DNA from: Bacteriovorax sp. MedPE-SWde
GTDB lineage: Bacteria > Bdellovibrionota > Bacteriovoracia > Bacteriovoracales > Bacteriovoracaceae
DNA: 64,000 nucleotides
Direction: 5' to 3'
NCBI GenBank assembly: GCA_001874305.1
Contig: MPCU01000003.1
Location: 124,001-188,000, forward strand
Part shown: in pieces, positions 1 to 50,683 of the stretch
How the letters are laid out: each line of letters begins with the position of its first letter
Numbering within the stretch: position 1 is the first letter of the stretch
The notes under the pieces: model-generated
Database searches by the model: none
Told to the model about the DNA's origin: nothing
Seen by the model: the letters and a program-made list of their open reading frames with translations, nothing else
Translations under genes and position numbers: made by a program

Positions 1-1625
1 AACAAGGTGCAATCAATATTCGTGCTTATCACGAAGGTGGGCAAGTTACGATAGAAATTGCTGATGATGGAAATGGAATAGACCCTGAGAAGATTCTTGC
101 AAAAGCAATATCAAAAGAAATTATCTCCGCGGAACGTGGAGCTTCTCTTAGTAAGAAACAAGTTCTAAACCTGGTATTTACACCAGGGTTTTCAACTGCT
201 GAGCAAGTTACAAATATATCCGGCCGTGGGGTTGGAATGGATGTTGTAAAATCTAATATTGAAAAAATTGGTGGATCAGTTGATGTAAGCTCTAAAGTTG
301 GGGAAGGAACAGTTTTCAAACTAAAGATCCCATTAACTTTAGCAATTGTACCTGCATTAGTTGTACAGAGCTGTAATGAAACTTATGCTATTCCTCAAAC
401 CAACCTTGTAGAGCTTGTAAGAATTGAAGAAAATGATGATAAAAAAATAGAGAATATTCAAAATTCAGAGTTCTTTAGATTGAGAGGTGATCTCATTCCT
501 ATCTTTAGATTAGACTCTAGTCTTGCGTTGGAGAATTGTGCCGAAGGTGAAGAAATATCTGAAGATGTAAACATCGCGATACTTAATGCTGAAGGTGCAA
601 TATATGGTTTGGTCGTTGATCAAGTCTTAGATACTGAAGAGATTGTTGTTAAACCACTTAGTCGAGAACTTAAAGAGATCTCAATCTATGGTGGTGCTAC
701 AATCATGGGTGATGGATCTGTTGCATTAATTATTGATGCTCTTGGGTATTACAATCATATGGGAAGAGTTCAAGCAACGAAGAAATCTGAAGTTGATCTT
801 TCTCAGAGACACTCAGAAAAAGAAGTCGCTTATAATGATGAAGTTCTACTTTGTTTACTTGAAGATGGAAGAGAATATGGAATTCCATTGGCAATCGTAC
901 ATAGATTAGAAGAATTTAAGAAAAGTGATATTGAATGGAGTGGTGAAATGCCTCTTGTCAGATATAGAGGCAAAGCAATGCCACTTATTCAATTAGAAAA
1001 AACAATTGGTGTCTCTAAAGATTCAGCACTTAATTCAAAAGAAGAAGATATCGCGGTTATTGTTATTAATGCAAGGGGTGTACAACTTGGTTTCGTAGTA
1101 ACTGAAATACGAGATATCGCCATTAACCATTCAAAAATTTCTACTGAAACATCTGACAGAGATGGTTTTGTTGGAACAGCATTTATAAATGAAAAAACAA
1201 TTACGATATTAGATATTTATAAAATCGTAGACTCGCTTCCATACGGATCAGAATCAAATACTTCTTCACATAAGGGGAAGGTATTAGTTGTGGAAGACTC
1301 TGAACTGTTTCTTAGGATTCAAAGAGAAATGTTTACTGAGTCTGGTTATGATGTGGACACCGCTATCGATGGTGTAGACGCAATGACAAAGATTAATTCA
1401 AAGTATGTTGCAGTTGTAACTGATGTAGATATGCCTAATATGAATGGTGTCCAACTTCTTAAAAAGATAAGAGAGAGTGAAGAGCTTAAAGAACTTCCTG
1501 TTCTTGCTGTCTCTTCTGTTGTTGAGAGAAAATACGATGAATTGATGAATGAAGGATTTGATTTTTGTTTCGACAAACAAAATAATTATAAAGCAATTGA
1601 AGTTATAGATAAGTTAATAGGTTAA
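1..1625 (+). CDS. cheA: Chemotaxis histidine kinase CheA, C-terminal part, with fused receiver (5' truncated by window)
   Basis: CheA autophosphorylates and passes phosphate to CheY and CheB under receptor control. The reading frame is already open at base 3, so the Hpt and dimerisation regions lie before the window. Visible in order: the end of the HATPase domain, with a DDGNGI G1 box (bases 63-80) and a GRGVGMD G2 box; a CheW-like domain ending in MGDGSVALIID; a second CheW-like domain starting near LLCLLEDGREYG; and a C-terminal receiver (from about base 1278) with ED acidic residues and the phosphoacceptor Asp in VVTDVDMP. Two CheW domains plus a receiver is longer than enteric CheA. The second, complete CheA at 9959-12514 also has two CheW-like domains but carries its receiver at the other end. 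cheW starts 5 bases downstream. Confidence 0.93.
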   Translation, partial: QGAINIRAYHEGGQVTIEIADDGNGIDPEKILAKAISKEIISAERGASLSKKQVLNLVFTPGFSTAEQVTNISGRGVGMDVVKSNIEKIGGSVDVSSKVGEGTVFKLKIPLTLAIVPALVVQSCNETYAIPQTNLVELVRIEENDDKKIENIQNSEFFRLRGDLIPIFRLDSSLALENCAEGEEISEDVNIAILNAEGAIYGLVVDQVLDTEEIVVKPLSRELKEISIYGGATIMGDGSVALIIDALGYYNHMGRVQATKKSEVDLSQRHSEKEVAYNDEVLLCLLEDGREYGIPLAIVHRLEEFKKSDIEWSGEMPLVRYRGKAMPLIQLEKTIGVSKDSALNSKEEDIAVIVINARGVQLGFVVTEIRDIAINHSKISTETSDRDGFVGTAFINEKTITILDIYKIVDSLPYGSESNTSSHKGKVLVVEDSELFLRIQREMFTESGYDVDTAIDGVDAMTKINSKYVAVVTDVDMPNMNGVQLLKKIRESEELKELPVLAVSSVVERKYDELMNEGFDFCFDKQNNYKAIEVIDKLIG

Positions 1626-1630
1626 TAATT

Positions 1631-2095
1631 ATGGAAATAGTAGAAAACAACGAAGAAATAAAAGGAAAGCAAATCTCAAAGCAGCTATGTGGCTTTAAGA
1701 TAAAAGGGGATTACTATGCGGTTTCAGTTCTTGACGTTCAAGAAGTGATTAAGCCTCATTCGTTAACACCTGTGCCTCTTTCTCCTGATTATGTAAAAGG
1801 TTTGATAAACCTTAGAGGACAAATAGTTACCTCTATTAGTCTAAGAAGATTATTCAAAATGGATGATGCTACTGAAGCTGATCATATGAATATAATTGTT
1901 AGAAGCGGAGATTCTCTATACGCATTGATGGTAGATGAGATTCTTGATGTTATTGATGTCGAAGAACAAACATACGAGAACATACCCGATACGATAAATG
2001 AAGAGATCAAAAAGTATATAAATGGCGTACATAAATTAGAAAATCACTTACTTATATTATTAGATTTAGAAAAAGTTTTAACTGTAGATATTTAA
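1631..2095 (+). CDS. cheW: Chemotaxis coupling protein CheW
   Basis: This 154-residue single-domain CheW scaffold links CheA to receptors in the cytoplasmic array. The family pattern is clear: CGFKIKGDYYAVSVLDVQEV near the N-terminus, VPLSPDYVKGLINLRGQIV, then ALMVDEILDVIDV and a final LLILLDLEKVL strand. Length is normal for CheW. It starts 5 bases after the cheA stop. No good Shine-Dalgarno sequence is visible, so translation is probably coupled to cheA. It is followed 12 bases later by the receptor gene that it presumably couples. Confidence 0.93.
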   Translation: MEIVENNEEIKGKQISKQLCGFKIKGDYYAVSVLDVQEVIKPHSLTPVPLSPDYVKGLINLRGQIVTSISLRRLFKMDDATEADHMNIIVRSGDSLYALMVDEILDVIDVEEQTYENIPDTINEEIKKYINGVHKLENHLLILLDLEKVLTVDI

Positions 2096-2107
2096 AAGGA
2101 ATTAATT

Positions 2108-4006
2108 ATGGCAGGATTAGAAGTCACAGGAAATGGAAGTGTAAACTTCGAACAAATGGTTGAGAAATCACCTATTAACACTCTCTTTGCAACACCAGAA
2201 GGTATTCTTACATACATGAATATGGCATCTTCTGAGCAATTAAAAGGTTTAGAACAGTATCTTCCAGATAAAGTTGATAATCTTGTTGGAAAGAGTATTG
2301 ACTGGTTCCATAAGAACCCTGAAGTACAAAGGAAGATAATTGGTAGCCCTGCAAACTTACCTTACAGTGGTATCATTGAAGTTGGACCAGAAAAATTAGA
2401 TCTACTTGTTACTCCAATTGTTGCTAATGATGGAACTTATCTAGGGCCAATGGTAACTTGGGAAGTCGTAACAGAAAAGCTGAAAGGCGAAGTTGAGATG
2501 GCCAGAATCAAGCAGATGGTTGATAAGTCACCAATTAATACAATGATGGCAACACCTGAAGGTGAGATGATTTATATGAATGATATCTCTCTTCAAACAT
2601 TAAAAGGATTAGAGCAATATCTACCTGATAAGGCTGCAAATCTTGTTGGAAATAGTATTGACTGGTTTCATAAGAATCCTGAAATTCAAAGAAAGATCAT
2701 TGGTAGTGCAAGTAACTTACCTCATAAAGCAATCATTGAAGTTGGACCAGAAAAGCTAGATCTTCTTGTTTCACCGATTATGTCACTTGATGGTTCTTAT
2801 CTAGGGCCAATGGTAACTTGGGAAGTCGTAACAGAAAAGCTGAAAGGCGAAGTTGAGATGGCGAGAATTAGACAGATGGTTGATAAGTCACCAATTAATA
2901 CAATGATGGCAACACCTGAAGGTGAGATGCTTTATATGAACGAGGCCTCACTATCAACACTAAAAGGATTAGAGCAATACTTACCTGATAGAGCAGATAA
3001 CCTTGTTGGAAATAGTATTGACTGGTTTCATAAAAATCCTGAAACTCAGAGAAAGATTATTGGTAATGCAAATAATCTTCCACATAAAGCAATCATATCT
3101 GTTGGACCAGAAAAGCTAGACCTATTAGTATCTCCAATTTTTGATACTGGTGGATCTTACCTAGGGCCAATGGTTACATGGGAAGTTATTTCAGATAAGT
3201 ATGCACTTGTTGAAGATCTATCAAAAAGTGCTGAAGGACTATCTGATTCTGCAGAGAATCTATTAGGTCTTTCAAACTCTCTATCTGCTGGAGCAGAGGA
3301 AACATCAGCTCAAGCAAATACTGCGAGTACGGCTTCAGAAGAGATCAATGCAGGTGTACAGACCGTTGCTTCAAATATGGAAGAGATGGTTGCTGCTATT
3401 AAAGAAATTACAAAGACAACAAATGAAGCATCTTCGATGTCTAATGAAGCTATGAAGATGGCAAAATCAACTAACCAAATTATTGGACAGCTTGGTGATT
3501 CAAGTATGGACATTGGAAACGTTATTAAAGTTATTTCTTCTATTGCACAACAGACAAATCTCCTTGCTCTAAACGCAACAATCGAGGCAGCAAGAGCTGG
3601 AGAAGCCGGAAAAGGGTTCGCAGTTGTTGCCAACGAAGTTAAAGAACTTGCAAAACAAACAGCTAAAGCAACAAATGATATTACTAAGAAGATTGAAACA
3701 ATTCAGAGTGATTCAAAGAATGCGGTTAATGCAATTGGTGAAATATCTGATGCGATTGAAAAAGTTAATGGTTACGCCGGAAATATTGCAGCATCTGTTG
3801 AAGAACAGGCAGCAACAACAAATGAGGTAACAAGAATTGTTACTGAAGCTGCAGAAGGTGTTAAACAAATTAACGAAAACATCGGTCAGGTATCTGAAGC
3901 GGCCTCATCAACAGGTAAGGATGCAGCAAATACTCAAGATGCAGCGAAAATGCTAAAAGAGATGGCGGCGACTCTAGGACAACACGTAGAGAAGATCCAG
4001 ATCTAA
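2108..4006 (+). CDS. Soluble methyl-accepting chemotaxis protein with three tandem sensory repeats
   Basis: This is a 632-residue receptor with no hydrophobic membrane segment, so it should signal from the cytoplasm. Residues 17-376 are three 120-residue PAS-like units, each containing MV(E/D)[25 protein letters not shown] and GPEKLDLLV. The C-terminal third is a standard MCP signalling domain, with a hairpin tip around [19 protein letters not shown] and [18 protein letters not shown]. The start has an AGGA ribosome site 8 bases upstream. Units 2 and 3 are almost identical at DNA level over long stretches. Being next to cheW and cheB, it is probably the main client of this array. The ligand cannot be read from the sequence; a heme or small-molecule PAS function is only a guess. 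Confidence 0.92.
2156..3200 (+). repeat. Three in-frame 360-bp tandem repeats inside the receptor gene
   Basis: Units begin at about 2156, 2516 and 2876, each 360 bp (120 codons). The junctions encoding [20 protein letters not shown] are nearly identical at about 2447-2510 and 2807-2870. This indicates recent duplication or gene conversion of the sensory domain. Confidence 0.9.
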
Positions 4007-4017
4007 TAAGGAATTAA

Positions 4018-5070
4018 ATGAAAATAATGGTAGTAGATGACTCTATAGTTTATCGAACAGCAATTAGCCAGGCCCTCTCTGAGGTTCCTGGCTACAATGT
4101 TTTTAAAACATGTAGCAATGGGAAGATCGCCGTTGATTTTTTAAAACAAAATCCTGATACCGATCTTATCACTCTTGATATGGAAATGCCGGTAATGGAT
4201 GGTATGGAAACTATTAAGGAGATTAGGAAATTTAATAACAAAGTTGTTATAATTGTTTTCTCTTCCTTTACAACTCGTGGTGCAGAAAGAACAATTGATG
4301 CTCTAGCGTTAGGTGCAGATGACTTTGTAACTAAGATTGAAGGAGAAGGAACTATTGAAAGCTCAATCGGAATGATAAGAGATGAATTAGTTCCAAAAAT
4401 CGAAGCTCTCAGGTTTAAACGATCGCCAAAAAGTCATGAGGAGAAAGCTCCTAAGGTTGAATCTATAAAGGACGTTCAGGGTCTTGTAGATGAAATGTCA
4501 GTGAAGCCAAAACTTGTTTGCATTGGCTGTTCAACAGGGGGTCCGGAAGCCTTAACTACTATTTTTAAAAACATTACGGAAAAACCAACATTTCCGATGC
4601 TGATCGTTCAGCATATGCCTCCTATGTTTACAAGAAAACTAGCAGAGATGCTTGATAAGGTATCTCCTGTAACTGTTAAAGAAGCGCAGGGTGGAGAAAA
4701 ACTTGAAAATGGCGTTTGTTACATTGCTCCAGGTGATTATCACATGACTCTTGAACGTGACTTATCCCTGGCCTTGAATCAAGATGAAAAGGTCTGCTTT
4801 GTTCGTCCATCAGTAGATGTTTTATTTGACTCAATCGCAAAAAACTTTCGATCACAAATACTATCTGTTGTTCTAACTGGAATGGGAGAAGATGGAGCTA
4901 ACGGCTGCGTTAACCTTGCAGAAAGAAAGGCATATCAATTTATTCAAGACGAAGAGTCTTCAATTGTATGGGGGATGCCTGGAGCTGTAAATAAGAGGGA
5001 AGTGGGAGCAAAGATTTTAACTTTAGTTGAATTTGGCCCATTAATAACATCTCTGGCTAAGAGAATTTAG
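4018..5070 (+). CDS. cheB: Chemotaxis response regulator protein-glutamate methylesterase CheB
   Basis: CheB removes methyl groups from receptor glutamates when phosphorylated by CheA. The 350-residue protein has an N-terminal receiver with acidic D7/D8 and phosphoacceptor D54 (LDMEMPVMDG). A linker follows, then the CheB esterase domain with the catalytic triad visible as S172 (IGCSTGGPEAL), H199 (VQHMPP) and D292 (TGMGEDGANG). Length is normal. AGGA lies 7 bases before the ATG. It sits between the receptor gene and a repeat/Hpt protein; CheR, its opponent, is encoded three genes downstream. Confidence 0.95.
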   Translation: MKIMVVDDSIVYRTAISQALSEVPGYNVFKTCSNGKIAVDFLKQNPDTDLITLDMEMPVMDGMETIKEIRKFNNKVVIIVFSSFTTRGAERTIDALALGADDFVTKIEGEGTIESSIGMIRDELVPKIEALRFKRSPKSHEEKAPKVESIKDVQGLVDEMSVKPKLVCIGCSTGGPEALTTIFKNITEKPTFPMLIVQHMPPMFTRKLAEMLDKVSPVTVKEAQGGEKLENGVCYIAPGDYHMTLERDLSLALNQDEKVCFVRPSVDVLFDSIAKNFRSQILSVVLTGMGEDGANGCVNLAERKAYQFIQDEESSIVWGMPGAVNKREVGAKILTLVEFGPLITSLAKRI

Positions 5071-46898: not shown

Positions 46899-49040
46899 TT
46901 AGTTTCGTTGCCAGGAGTGAAACTTCTTAACCCAGTTAAGAAGCATTTCTGGCTTTCTTTCCTTTTTCCATTCTCCGGCCAAGTACTTATTTGCTTCTCC
47001 CATCGTTGGATAGGTGTGAATCGTTCCAAGTATTTTATTAAGTCCAAATCCATGCTTCATAGCGGATATAAATTCTAGTAATAAATCAGAGGCATGGTTA
47101 CCAACTATCGTTGCACCAATAATTTTATCAGTCCCAGGCTTTGTTAGAACTTTAACGAATCCATGGTCTTCACTATCTGCAATAGCCCTGTCTAGGTCAT
47201 CGATACCATACTTTGTAACTTCATAAGCGATACCTTCAAGCTTACAGGCCTCCTCGTTTTTACCAACTGTAGCTACTTCTGGATCAGTATAAGTTGCCCA
47301 AGGAATAACGCTATAGTCGACTCTAAACTTCTTAAACTTTCCAAATAGCCCATTAACTGCACAATACCAGGCCTGGTGGGCCGCAGTGTGTGTGAGTTGA
47401 AAAGGACCGGTTACATCACCACTTGCAAAAATATTTGGGAATTTCGTTTGTAAGAACTCATTTGTTTCAATAGTTCCATTCTTTCTTAGCTCTACTCCTA
47501 GCTCTTCAAGTCCGAAGCCTTTTGTATTAGGGCGCCTTCCAACAGCGACAAGAACCTTGTCATATTCAAGTTCAATATCTTTTCCATCTACTTCACATAT
47601 TAGTATTTTCTTATCATCAATATTTTTAAATTCTTTAGCTCTATGAGAAGTCAGAACATTAACCCCTTCTTCAGTTAACTTCTTATCTATAAATTCTGAT
47701 ACATCAGCATCTTCCTTTATCATAATTCTTGATGCCATCTCTACGACAGTGACTTTCGATCCTAGTCTTGAGAAACTTTGTGCCATCTCTAGTCCAATAG
47801 GCCCGCCTCCTAGAACAATAAATCTCTCTGGGAGAGTCCTTATATCCCATAAATTATCACTGACTAGAATATCAGCATCCTGGATTCCTGGAATTGGTGG
47901 AACAAAGGGACCTGCCCCTGTTGCTATAGTGATATTCTTTGTTGTTAAAACCTTTCCATTAACTTCAACTTCCCACGGAGATATTATTTTCGCTGAACCT
48001 GTAATACAGTCGACACCTAAGTCAGTATATCTTTCAATAGAATCATGGGGCTCAACCTTTTTGATTACATTTTGAACTCTATCCATAACTTTTGCGAAAT
48101 CAAACTTGATATCAATTTTATCTATTCCATATTGTTCAGATTTCTTTGCATAGTGTACAACTTTTGCCGATTTTATTATTGCTTTAGAAGGTACACAGCC
48201 TGTGTTTAAGCAATCTCCACCCATCTTATGTTTCTCTATTAGAGCTACTTTCGCATTAACGGCAGCGCCAATATAAGATGTAACTAATCCGGCAGCACCC
48301 CCGCCAATAGAAATCATATTGTAGTCATAAGAAGAAGGTTTCTTATAACCTTTATAAACTCTTTGTGATTTTAGAAAATTGACTATTTTCTTCCCTAGTA
48401 GAGGCACAAGACCTAAGAGAGTAAATGATATTAGTAATGAAGGAGATAAAATTCCTGAAAGGCCATCAATCTTACTTAGTTCAACTCCTGCATTAACATA
48501 TACAGCTGTTCCTAATAACATTCCTAATTGGGAAACAATATAAAAGGTAAGAACTCTTATTGGAGTTAAACCCATAACGAGATTTATTAAAAAGAATGGA
48601 AAAATTGGTAGTAATCTTAAAGTGAATAGATAGAAGGCGCCTTCTTTTTCAATTCCATCATTTATGACTTTAATTTTTTCACTAAACTTATTTTGAACCC
48701 AGTCTTTTAAAAAGAATCTTGAAACGAGAAAAGCTAGTGTTGCACCAATAGTGCTCGCAAAAGAAACAATAATTAATCCAATCTTCAGACCAAATAGAGC
48801 ACCTCCGGCAAGAGTCAATATTGTGGCCCCTGGAAGAGAGAGTGCTGTCGTTAAAACATATATAGAAGTATATATAGCTAGTGTTTGAATAACATTGGCG
48901 TTGTAGTAGTTTTGGAATGTTTTCTGATTTTCTTTAAGGTAGTCCAATGTGAGGTATTCACTTAGGCCATATTTGTTAAAAATGATAACTAAAGCGACTA
49001 TCGCTATTAGGAGAATTATTTTTGTCAGCTTCTTCGCCAT
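46899..49040 (-). CDS. DedA/TVP38-like membrane domain fused to a disulfide oxidoreductase
   Basis: This is a 713-residue fusion. Residues 1-230 are a VTT/SNARE-associated membrane domain with about six hydrophobic segments (PGATILTLAGGALFG, LRLLPIFPFFLINLVMG). From about 240 it is a class I pyridine-nucleotide-disulfide oxidoreductase: FAD motif ISIGGGAAGLV, redox pair GGDCLNTGCVPSK, NAD motif VLGGGPIGLE, FASGDVTG, and the C-terminal dimer domain ending AGEWKKERKPEM, with the usual HTYPTMGE. The fusion puts a flavin reductase at the membrane, perhaps feeding reducing power across it. MsrB is encoded 10 bases upstream, which suggests repair of oxidised proteins. Confidence 0.92.
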   Translation of the reverse strand: MAKKLTKIILLIAIVALVIIFNKYGLSEYLTLDYLKENQKTFQNYYNANVIQTLAIYTSIYVLTTALSLPGATILTLAGGALFGLKIGLIIVSFASTIGATLAFLVSRFFLKDWVQNKFSEKIKVINDGIEKEGAFYLFTLRLLPIFPFFLINLVMGLTPIRVLTFYIVSQLGMLLGTAVYVNAGVELSKIDGLSGILSPSLLISFTLLGLVPLLGKKIVNFLKSQRVYKGYKKPSSYDYNMISIGGGAAGLVTSYIGAAVNAKVALIEKHKMGGDCLNTGCVPSKAIIKSAKVVHYAKKSEQYGIDKIDIKFDFAKVMDRVQNVIKKVEPHDSIERYTDLGVDCITGSAKIISPWEVEVNGKVLTTKNITIATGAGPFVPPIPGIQDADILVSDNLWDIRTLPERFIVLGGGPIGLEMAQSFSRLGSKVTVVEMASRIMIKEDADVSEFIDKKLTEEGVNVLTSHRAKEFKNIDDKKILICEVDGKDIELEYDKVLVAVGRRPNTKGFGLEELGVELRKNGTIETNEFLQTKFPNIFASGDVTGPFQLTHTAAHQAWYCAVNGLFGKFKKFRVDYSVIPWATYTDPEVATVGKNEEACKLEGIAYEVTKYGIDDLDRAIADSEDHGFVKVLTKPGTDKIIGATIVGNHASDLLLEFISAMKHGFGLNKILGTIHTYPTMGEANKYLAGEWKKERKPEMLLNWVKKFHSWQRN

Positions 49041-49620: not shown

Positions 49621-49644
49621 AAAAAAGCCCCTTTAAAAAGGGGC
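49621..49644 (-). terminator. Intrinsic terminator after the thioesterase gene
   Basis: GCCCCTTT / AAAGGGGC stem and six T on the minus strand, 8 bases after the stop codon. Confidence 0.88.
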
Positions 49645-49651
49645 CAATATC

Positions 49652-50050
49652 TTATGAAGGTAAATGATTCTCAATACTTATTGGCTTTTTGTCGTCACCA
49701 ATTGCGACAAAGGTGAAGTCTCCATGAACCGCAAGCTGTCTATCATCTGAATACATATCTTCGAGGTATATTTCGACTCCTACGACAATGCTACTTTTGC
49801 CTACCATCTTAACTTTTCCTACTAGTTCGGCGATTGTTCCTGCTGGGATAGATTTTTTAAAGTCTACTCTTGAGCTAGAAACAGTAACTACTTTTTGACG
49901 AGTAAAGCGTGTTGCTGTGATAAATGAAACTTCGTCCATCCACTTCAGTGCAGTACCACCAAAAAGTGTGTCGTAATGGTTTGTCGTGTTCGGGAAAATT
50001 GCTTTTGATACTTTTGTTGTTGAATTTTCAATCCTTCTTGATAAATCCAT
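49652..50050 (-). CDS. Hotdog-fold acyl-CoA thioesterase (YciA/BACH type), under a cobalamin riboswitch
   Basis: This is a 132-residue hotdog thioesterase. Family features are TNHYDTLFGGTALKWMDEV (the catalytic Asp-bearing helix), RVDFKKSIPAGTIAELVGKV and the GDFTFVAIGDD strand. Such enzymes hydrolyse acyl-CoA esters in the cytoplasm. The ATG follows GAGGAGG, which lies just after a clear cobalamin riboswitch on the same strand (50060-50160). This implies control by B12 level, unusual for this family. A link to propionyl-CoA or methylmalonyl-CoA, whose metabolism uses B12, is inference. A terminator follows, so the gene is a single-gene unit. Confidence 0.92.
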   Translation of the reverse strand: MDLSRRIENSTTKVSKAIFPNTTNHYDTLFGGTALKWMDEVSFITATRFTRQKVVTVSSSRVDFKKSIPAGTIAELVGKVKMVGKSSIVVGVEIYLEDMYSDDRQLAVHGDFTFVAIGDDKKPISIENHLPS

Positions 50051-50059
50051 AAAAAACCT

Positions 50060-50160
50060 CCTCGGGTAATAATGTATTAAAGGATCTGGCTATACAGTTG
50101 CGGGACAGCCTCGGATTTTCACCGAGTTCACTTTGAATACACTTTAGTTATTTTTGAGCC
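50060..50160 (-). ncRNA. Cobalamin (B12) riboswitch
   Basis: Minus-strand positions 50130-50090 contain the conserved core: GTGAACTCGGTGAAAATCC, then GAGGCTGTCCCGCAACTGTA, followed by GCCAGATCC. This matches the cobalamin aptamer core (GGGAA, GGTGnAAnTCC, GCnGnCCCGCnACTGT, GYCAG). The peripheral stems after the core are very short, so it looks like a compact form. CTCGG (50122-50126) pairs with CCGAG in the aptamer (50110-50114), but an identical CCGAG (50061-50065) overlaps the GAGGAGG ribosome site of the thioesterase gene, offering a competing pair. The 5' side runs into the end of the hemJ coding region. Confidence 0.88.
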
Positions 50161-50683
50161 TAATGCTCTTGTATACTCTTATTGCAAACATAAGAATCAT
50201 TGTAAATATGACAAGACCAATTAGTCCATATCCCATATGAACAATGTCTTTTAAAACAACGAGAAAGATTATCGCGACAAGGAAAATTGTTGCGACCTCA
50301 TTCCAAAGTCTTAATTTTGTTGGGGAATATTTGAAGTCATTATTTTTAAGCTTCTTATATATATGATGACAACTTAGGTGGTAGAGAAATAGTCCACCGA
50401 CAAAGAATAGTTTTGTTATTAACCAAGCATGATCCTTCAGTGGTAGAAAGGCATGAATAAGACTTGGTCCTAAAATTAAAGTAATTATAGCTGATGGCCA
50501 GGTAATACCAAACCAAAGTCTACGTTGCATTATTTTAAACTGTTCGGATAATATTCTTCTCTCTGTATCTTCTTTTTCTTGCGCCTCTGTATGATAGATA
50601 AATAATCTAACTATATAGAATAGGCCAGCAAACCAAGTAGTAACAAATACAATATGAAGAGCTTTTAAGTAAAAGAAACTCAT
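50144..50683 (-). CDS. hemJ: Protoporphyrinogen IX oxidase HemJ (UPF0093)
   Basis: This 179-residue membrane protein is of the HemJ family, which oxidises protoporphyrinogen IX late in heme synthesis. The signature ALHIVFVTTWFAGLFYIVRLF (the conserved His in the first segment) is followed by EQFKIMQRRLWFGITWPSAI and a further three hydrophobic segments, with the second conserved Lys in ITKLFFVG. The start codon overlaps the upstream stop (TAATG). Its 3' end overlaps the 5' side of the cobalamin riboswitch. Confidence 0.92.
   Translation of the reverse strand: MSFFYLKALHIVFVTTWFAGLFYIVRLFIYHTEAQEKEDTERRILSEQFKIMQRRLWFGITWPSAIITLILGPSLIHAFLPLKDHAWLITKLFFVGGLFLYHLSCHHIYKKLKNNDFKYSPTKLRLWNEVATIFLVAIIFLVVLKDIVHMGYGLIGLVIFTMILMFAIRVYKSIRLKNN

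Follow-up and report, generated by a model that had tools for sequence, protein, structure and literature searches.

The window analysed here is a 64,000-nucleotide stretch of the Bacteriovorax sp. MedPE-SWde genome (contig MPCU01000003.1, positions 124,001 to 188,000), and the features of Table 1 all lie on its minus strand. It contains a gene for a hotdog acyl-CoA thioesterase (TE), whose start codon at 50050 is separated by 21 nt from a candidate cobalamin (vitamin B12) riboswitch aptamer; on its other side the aptamer directly adjoins the stop codon of a hemJ-like gene (gene end 50144). We consider it probable, at about three chances in four, that this RF01689-type switch controls translation of TE, and that the thioesterase, made under B12 shortage, frees coenzyme A (CoA) from acyl-CoAs held up before B12-dependent mutases. 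The aptamer, the covariation of its L5 and L13 loop sequences, the conserved linkage of riboswitch and TE, and the B12-dependent mutases of the genome are all observed directly.

The conserved aptamer core (GGTGAAAATCC, GCTGTCCCGCAACTGTA and GCCAG, 50123-50086) lies within a covariance match that spans 50142-50072. In a search of all 4227 Rfam families with permissive filters, RF01689 (AdoCbl-II) matched with 35.3 bits (E = 8.2e-7; curated cut-off 36.5) over the full length of the model (positions 1-81, 71 nt) and RF00174 with 30.4 bits (cut-off 31.5); RF01689 was the best-scoring member of its clan (RF00174/RF01482/RF01689). The original prediction had placed a cobalamin riboswitch ahead of a hotdog thioesterase gene with its own terminator, and had proposed an Infernal/Rfam check; both models do match, but just below their curated cut-offs, and a scan at gathering thresholds does not report the window aptamer. 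Orthologous leaders in two genomes of the same genus score 37.5 and 43.2 bits, over the RF01689 cut-off, and the window leader has both the conserved core and the L5 sequence UCCCG. The presence of a candidate cobalamin riboswitch in front of TE is confirmed at the sequence level, and its shortness, its lack of a large P6 periphery and its higher score with RF01689 than with RF00174 mark it as the RF01689 (Cbl-II) subtype. The very short peripheral domain, also foreseen, is the property that separates RF01689 from RF00174.

Table 1. Features of the riboswitch-thioesterase locus and its upstream neighbour (window positions)
Feature	Position	Strand	Basis or remark
Closing stem 5' strand, AGTGTATT	50136..50143	-	Sequence; covariance match; centroid fold; partner AATACATT
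Candidate cobalamin riboswitch aptamer, RF01689-like, short periphery	50072..50142	-	Covariance match, RF01689 and RF00174
First inner hairpin CTCGG-TGAAAAT-CCGAG, stem and conserved loop	50110..50126	-	Covariance alignment
L5 kissing-loop sequence TCCCG	50101..50105	-	Published L5 consensus UCCCG; covaries with L13
Minimal P6 hairpin CTG-TATAGC-CAG, without peripheral extension	50086..50097	-	Covariance alignment
Closing stem 3' strand, AATACATT	50071..50078	-	Sequence; covariance match; centroid fold
P13/L13, ACC-[CGAGGA]-GGT	50056..50067	-	Sequence; L5-L13 covariation; P13 pairing
Hotdog acyl-CoA thioesterase (TE), 132 amino acids	49652..50050	-	Pfam 4HBT 53.5 bits (cut-off 20.6); PDB 2gvh 148 bits, 2eis 107 bits
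Intrinsic terminator GCCCC-TTTTTAAA-GGGGC-TTTTTT, ends TE transcript	49621..49645	-	Sequence
hemJ-like gene, upstream	50144..50683	-	UPF0093 127 bits, TIGR00701 106 bits; outside the switch

In cobalamin riboswitches the L5 sequence UCCCG pairs with L13 of the expression platform, and in the env8HyCbl riboswitch this pairing contains a mismatch and a bulge (PMC10653944). The window L13, CGAGGA (50064-50059), is complementary to L5 with one bulged A, and the Shine-Dalgarno sequence GAGGAGG (50063-50057) overlaps both L13 and the 3' side of P13. Among 57 leaders from the phylum (Bdellovibrionota), L13 matches its own L5 in 51, a number that none of 10,000 permutations equalled (mean 38.2, maximum 47); the permutations preserve base content and not relatedness, so that this count overstates independence. 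All ten leaders with a variant L5, which come from several genera, carry a compensating L13 (UGCCG with CGNGCA, UCGCG with CGCG or CGCAGGA, and UCCAG with CUAAGGA), and the innermost P13 pair is retained in 33 of 37 distinct platforms, compensatory changes included. Since the Shine-Dalgarno sequence is itself made up of L13 and the 3' side of P13, cobalamin binding should block translation directly: bound cobalamin would let L5 pair with L13 and so stabilise the small P13 hairpin, which would cover the Shine-Dalgarno sequence, exclude the ribosome and stop TE synthesis, and when B12 is short the ribosome site would stand open and TE would be produced. Ligand binding, and repression of TE translation rather than activation, are predicted as the most likely behaviour. 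The element resembles the RF01689 riboswitches of the env8HyCbl type in its short periphery, common core, L5-L13 kissing loop with a bulge and translational platform; it differs from them in its target, a thioesterase, and in that the ribosome site itself builds L13 and part of a P13 of only 2-3 bp, a very compact platform.

The platform is not the same in all relatives. In an orthologue from another family (L120) an RF01482 (AdoCbl-type) riboswitch on the reverse strand (60.2 bits) is followed by a terminator-like hairpin, CCCGAGACTTGGG, and six Ts; this leader appears to use a terminator hairpin in place of a translational platform, and as riboswitch and hairpin still precede TE, the type of platform would have changed while the target stayed. 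Three other relatives, L075 (816 onwards), L077 (1323 onwards) and L026 (1590 onwards, reverse strand), have an L13-covered ribosome site that serves a 7-codon frame before TE or metE (MNFIITS*, MNISSDL* and MNIFVTS*, respectively), which suggests a putative leader peptide between riboswitch and target. In the Bdellovibrio-like leaders L121-L124 an enlarged hairpin replaces the short conserved loop that follows the first inner stem, and the Rfam scores of these leaders are low or absent (33.9 and 33.0 bits for two of them, against 50).

A close TE orthologue is present in 25 of 129 genomes of the same family, and the aptamer core stands just upstream of it in 21. In two more of the 25 the cobalamin riboswitch is of a larger type (RF00174, about 55 bits) and a tandem-repeat insert separates it from TE, and the last two, both from one genus, have no riboswitch upstream. 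Extending the search to the phylum gave eight further orthologues from four other families (f6, f8, f11 and f19), seven of them with a riboswitch, which brings the linkage to 30 of 33 TE orthologues in five families and answers the original call to look for the pairing in related genomes. The riboswitch is kept at the orthologues of the window's genus that are 92% (Bacteriovorax sp. DB6_IX) and 88% identical. The genes that adjoin TE change from genome to genome and the riboswitch stays with TE, which identifies TE as the conserved target; a chance element or one linked to hemJ, and likewise a connection to hemJ or heme, is rejected, as the riboswitch recurs with TE beside differing upstream genes and relatives have other neighbours. 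Distant TE paralogues in the same genomes, which are longer and about 30% identical, are not near any riboswitch match when positions are compared by eye. In genus g11, tandem arrays lie between the riboswitch core and TE (L071, 1153-1402, 86 nt x 2.9; L072, 1968-2337, 89 nt x 4.2) and are apparently expansions of the riboswitch periphery or the leader.

The TE product is, from its sequence, a hotdog acyl-CoA thioesterase of the 4HBT family, homologous to 26 PDB sequences that include solved acyl-CoA hydrolases. It shares the hotdog fold and the FGG...MD active-site region with the YciA/YkhA/ACOT-type thioesterases, but falls in a separate, shorter clade. Housekeeping paralogues, at about 30% identity, lack riboswitch linkage. 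The TE product scores 37.7 bits with the YciA equivalog model NF007970, which requires 162, and so lies outside that group. Its best structural relatives are two hotdog proteins from structural genomics, TTHB207 (PDB 2eis) and AGR_L_2016p (PDB 2gvh), the latter differing in its two-domain form, as in Shinella, Ensifer and Sphingomonas. In a maximum-likelihood tree nearly all Bdellovibrionota and Bacteroidota TE proteins form one clade (100/99), with Thermus and Deinococcus adjoining; the two most diverged Bdellovibrionota proteins (L125 and L126) are placed elsewhere with weak support. One genome of the window's genus (G002) has a TE from another branch of this clade that is also behind a riboswitch, which points to exchange or replacement of the riboswitch-TE pair.

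Outside the phylum we looked at hand-picked plasmid records, so that the contexts are examples and not rates. In Thermus (L130, L132) a riboswitch is followed by TE-nrdB-nrdA, and by annotation and sequence the protein of PDB 2eis matches the product of the first gene of this riboswitch-TE-nrdBA operon in Thermus thermophilus HB8. The Deinococcus order is TE-nrdI-nrdE-nrdF-trx (L131, L133), with a recognisable aptamer core, CAGTCGCGCTACGG, about 210 nt before TE, which Rfam 15 misses even with the threshold relaxed to E 0.05; in Allomeiothermus a riboswitch (51.4 bits) precedes nrdI-nrdE-nrdF-TE, and in haloarchaea TE adjoins nrdBA in two of three records examined. Shinella and Ensifer have a riboswitch (129 and 114 bits) before metE-TE and a second one before the nrd operon. 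In Sphingomonas and Shinella sumterensis a riboswitch (121 and 131 bits) precedes a TE that lies back to back with mesX-mesD, and in Novosphingobium riboswitch, mesX-mesD, TE and acnD-prpF form an apparent operon in that order; MesD requires no cobalamin (PMC7857596). Azospira has a riboswitch (115 bits) before TE-nrdA and a divergent one before a TonB receptor gene. On three Paracoccus plasmids TE heads prpD-prpC-prpB, where no riboswitch was found. The plasmid matches listed also include thioesterases of Staphylococcus, Listeria and Bacillus, and the Staphylococcus record examined has no B12-type gene context; such low-identity matches are probably the housekeeping paralogue. The B12-independent isozymes that cobalamin riboswitches control (metE, nrdAB/nrdIEF, nrdDG) are needed without B12 and repressed by it, as TE is predicted to be, and TE is often in their operons. 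TE differs in that it replaces no B12-dependent reaction and would instead clear the substrate that accumulates before one; it is no isozyme of any B12 enzyme and works alongside them, and thus falls outside the isozyme class.

Family searches of the window genome found a methylmalonyl-CoA mutase with MeaB, the fused isobutyryl-CoA mutase IcmF with the adenosyltransferase PduO, and a 1251-amino-acid B12-binding protein of MetH size. The only other cobalamin riboswitch match is upstream of a gene for a BtuB-like TonB-dependent B12 receptor. TIGR02504 (NrdJ) scores below its cut-off in this genome, and a B12-dependent ribonucleotide reductase was not counted. PrpD of the methylcitrate cycle was not found there by family search and is absent from all 25 TE-bearing genomes of the family, none of which lacks methylmalonyl-CoA mutase; with PrpD in 10 and no mutase in 6 of the 129 family genomes, a correlation of TE with the methylcitrate cycle is weak, and is confounded by ancestry. 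In the absence of B12, no obvious outlet would remain for propionyl-, methylmalonyl- and isobutyryl-CoA, and TE may hydrolyse what stalls at the idle adenosylcobalamin-dependent mutases (propionyl- and methylmalonyl-CoA before methylmalonyl-CoA mutase, isobutyryl-CoA before IcmF) and so release CoA. Relief of these acyl-CoAs at low B12 had been predicted, and the gene content (mutases, B12 receptor, no PrpD) fits it, as do the prp, metE and nrd contexts elsewhere; the substrate itself we infer from the regulation and gene company of TE. At the riboswitch-controlled BtuB-like gene of the window genome (L115, region 855-4627), an ATP-pyrophosphatase-like open reading frame (ORF) comes before that gene and a gene for a TonB-like protein after it; such ORFs are often found near B12 genes.

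Several observations weigh against a B12-controlled thioesterase that serves these mutases. The window aptamer is 1.1-1.2 bits below the curated cut-offs of RF01689 and RF00174, and the single-sequence fold stability of the leader is no greater than that of shuffles (z -0.08), an uninformative result. Three orthologues, the two of one genus and L119, lack the riboswitch. Bacteroidota homologues of up to about 65% identity have no riboswitch within about 2.5 kb among those examined, nor any B12 link among their flanking genes, which means that the family can do without B12 control. The mutase is present in nearly all genomes of the family and TE in only 25 of 129. The scores, the fold stability and the contact with the hemJ stop codon would suit a decayed or non-functional aptamer, or simply the 3' end of the hemJ message; we find this very improbable, because the window sequence retains intact pairings of L5, L13 and P13 and an intact minimal P6, the aptamer accompanies TE where the upstream gene differs, and it is retained at the 92% and 88% identical orthologues. 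Equally improbable is a switching scheme that takes up the original prediction, in which a second CCGAG near the ribosome site would compete with the aptamer arm CTCGG; B12 binding would then open the ribosome site and turn TE on. That element exists (50065-50061), and CTCGG (50126-50122) is complementary to it in the window genome; it falls within L13, however, and covaries with L5 and not with the hairpin arm, which varies freely in relatives (GTTGG, GCTGG, CCCGG and others) while CCCG(N)GG is constant. The competing pairing is therefore unconserved, and we reject it.

More weight attaches to the idea that the riboswitch does control TE, but for another need of B12 starvation, for example removal of odd-chain or branched acyl-CoAs to protect membrane lipids, or a link to nucleotide reduction or methionine supply. 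The constant partner of TE in Deinococcota and haloarchaea is ribonucleotide reductase, and in Shinella, Ensifer and the sphingomonads methionine synthase, rather than propionate genes. These partners, however, themselves replace B12-dependent enzymes, which explains the company, and TE does head prpDCB on the three Paracoccus plasmids and sits with acnD-prpF in Novosphingobium. We judge such a role unlikely, with lipid quality as its live form, and prefer the release of CoA from mutase-stalled acyl-CoAs.

A large comparative study recognised four groups of B12 riboswitch targets (B12 synthesis, B12 transport, cobalt transport and isozymes), and thioesterases are not named in its main text (PMC3766115). 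A thioesterase fits none of these groups, which makes TE a target of a new kind for an established riboswitch class; the proposal of a new regulon member is supported, and the pairing is far more general than it suggested. We found no published report of it in the literature within reach, which excluded subscription papers and supplementary regulon tables, where an earlier mention is possible. The pairing is found in predatory bacteria, in Thermus/Deinococcus and in Proteobacteria, so thioesterases of this kind appear to belong to a common response to B12 loss, as a part of it that had gone unremarked. We lean slightly towards the broader view that in several phyla the B12 riboswitch regulon has a further general arm, a thioesterase for B12 starvation, which would keep CoA free by hydrolysing acyl-CoAs backed up at adenosylcobalamin-dependent mutases. 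If so, bacteria actively clear the metabolic block that arises when B12 is lacking, a problem familiar from human methylmalonic aciduria. The uncharacterised thioesterase family with solved structures (2eis, 2gvh) also gains a concrete function hypothesis, testable in Thermus thermophilus and other genetically tractable hosts or in recombinant E. coli.

Elsewhere in the window, positions 46899-49040 encode a fusion protein of 713 amino acids, with a VTT membrane domain at the N-terminus joined to a pyridine nucleotide-disulphide oxidoreductase of the mercuric reductase/lipoamide dehydrogenase type.
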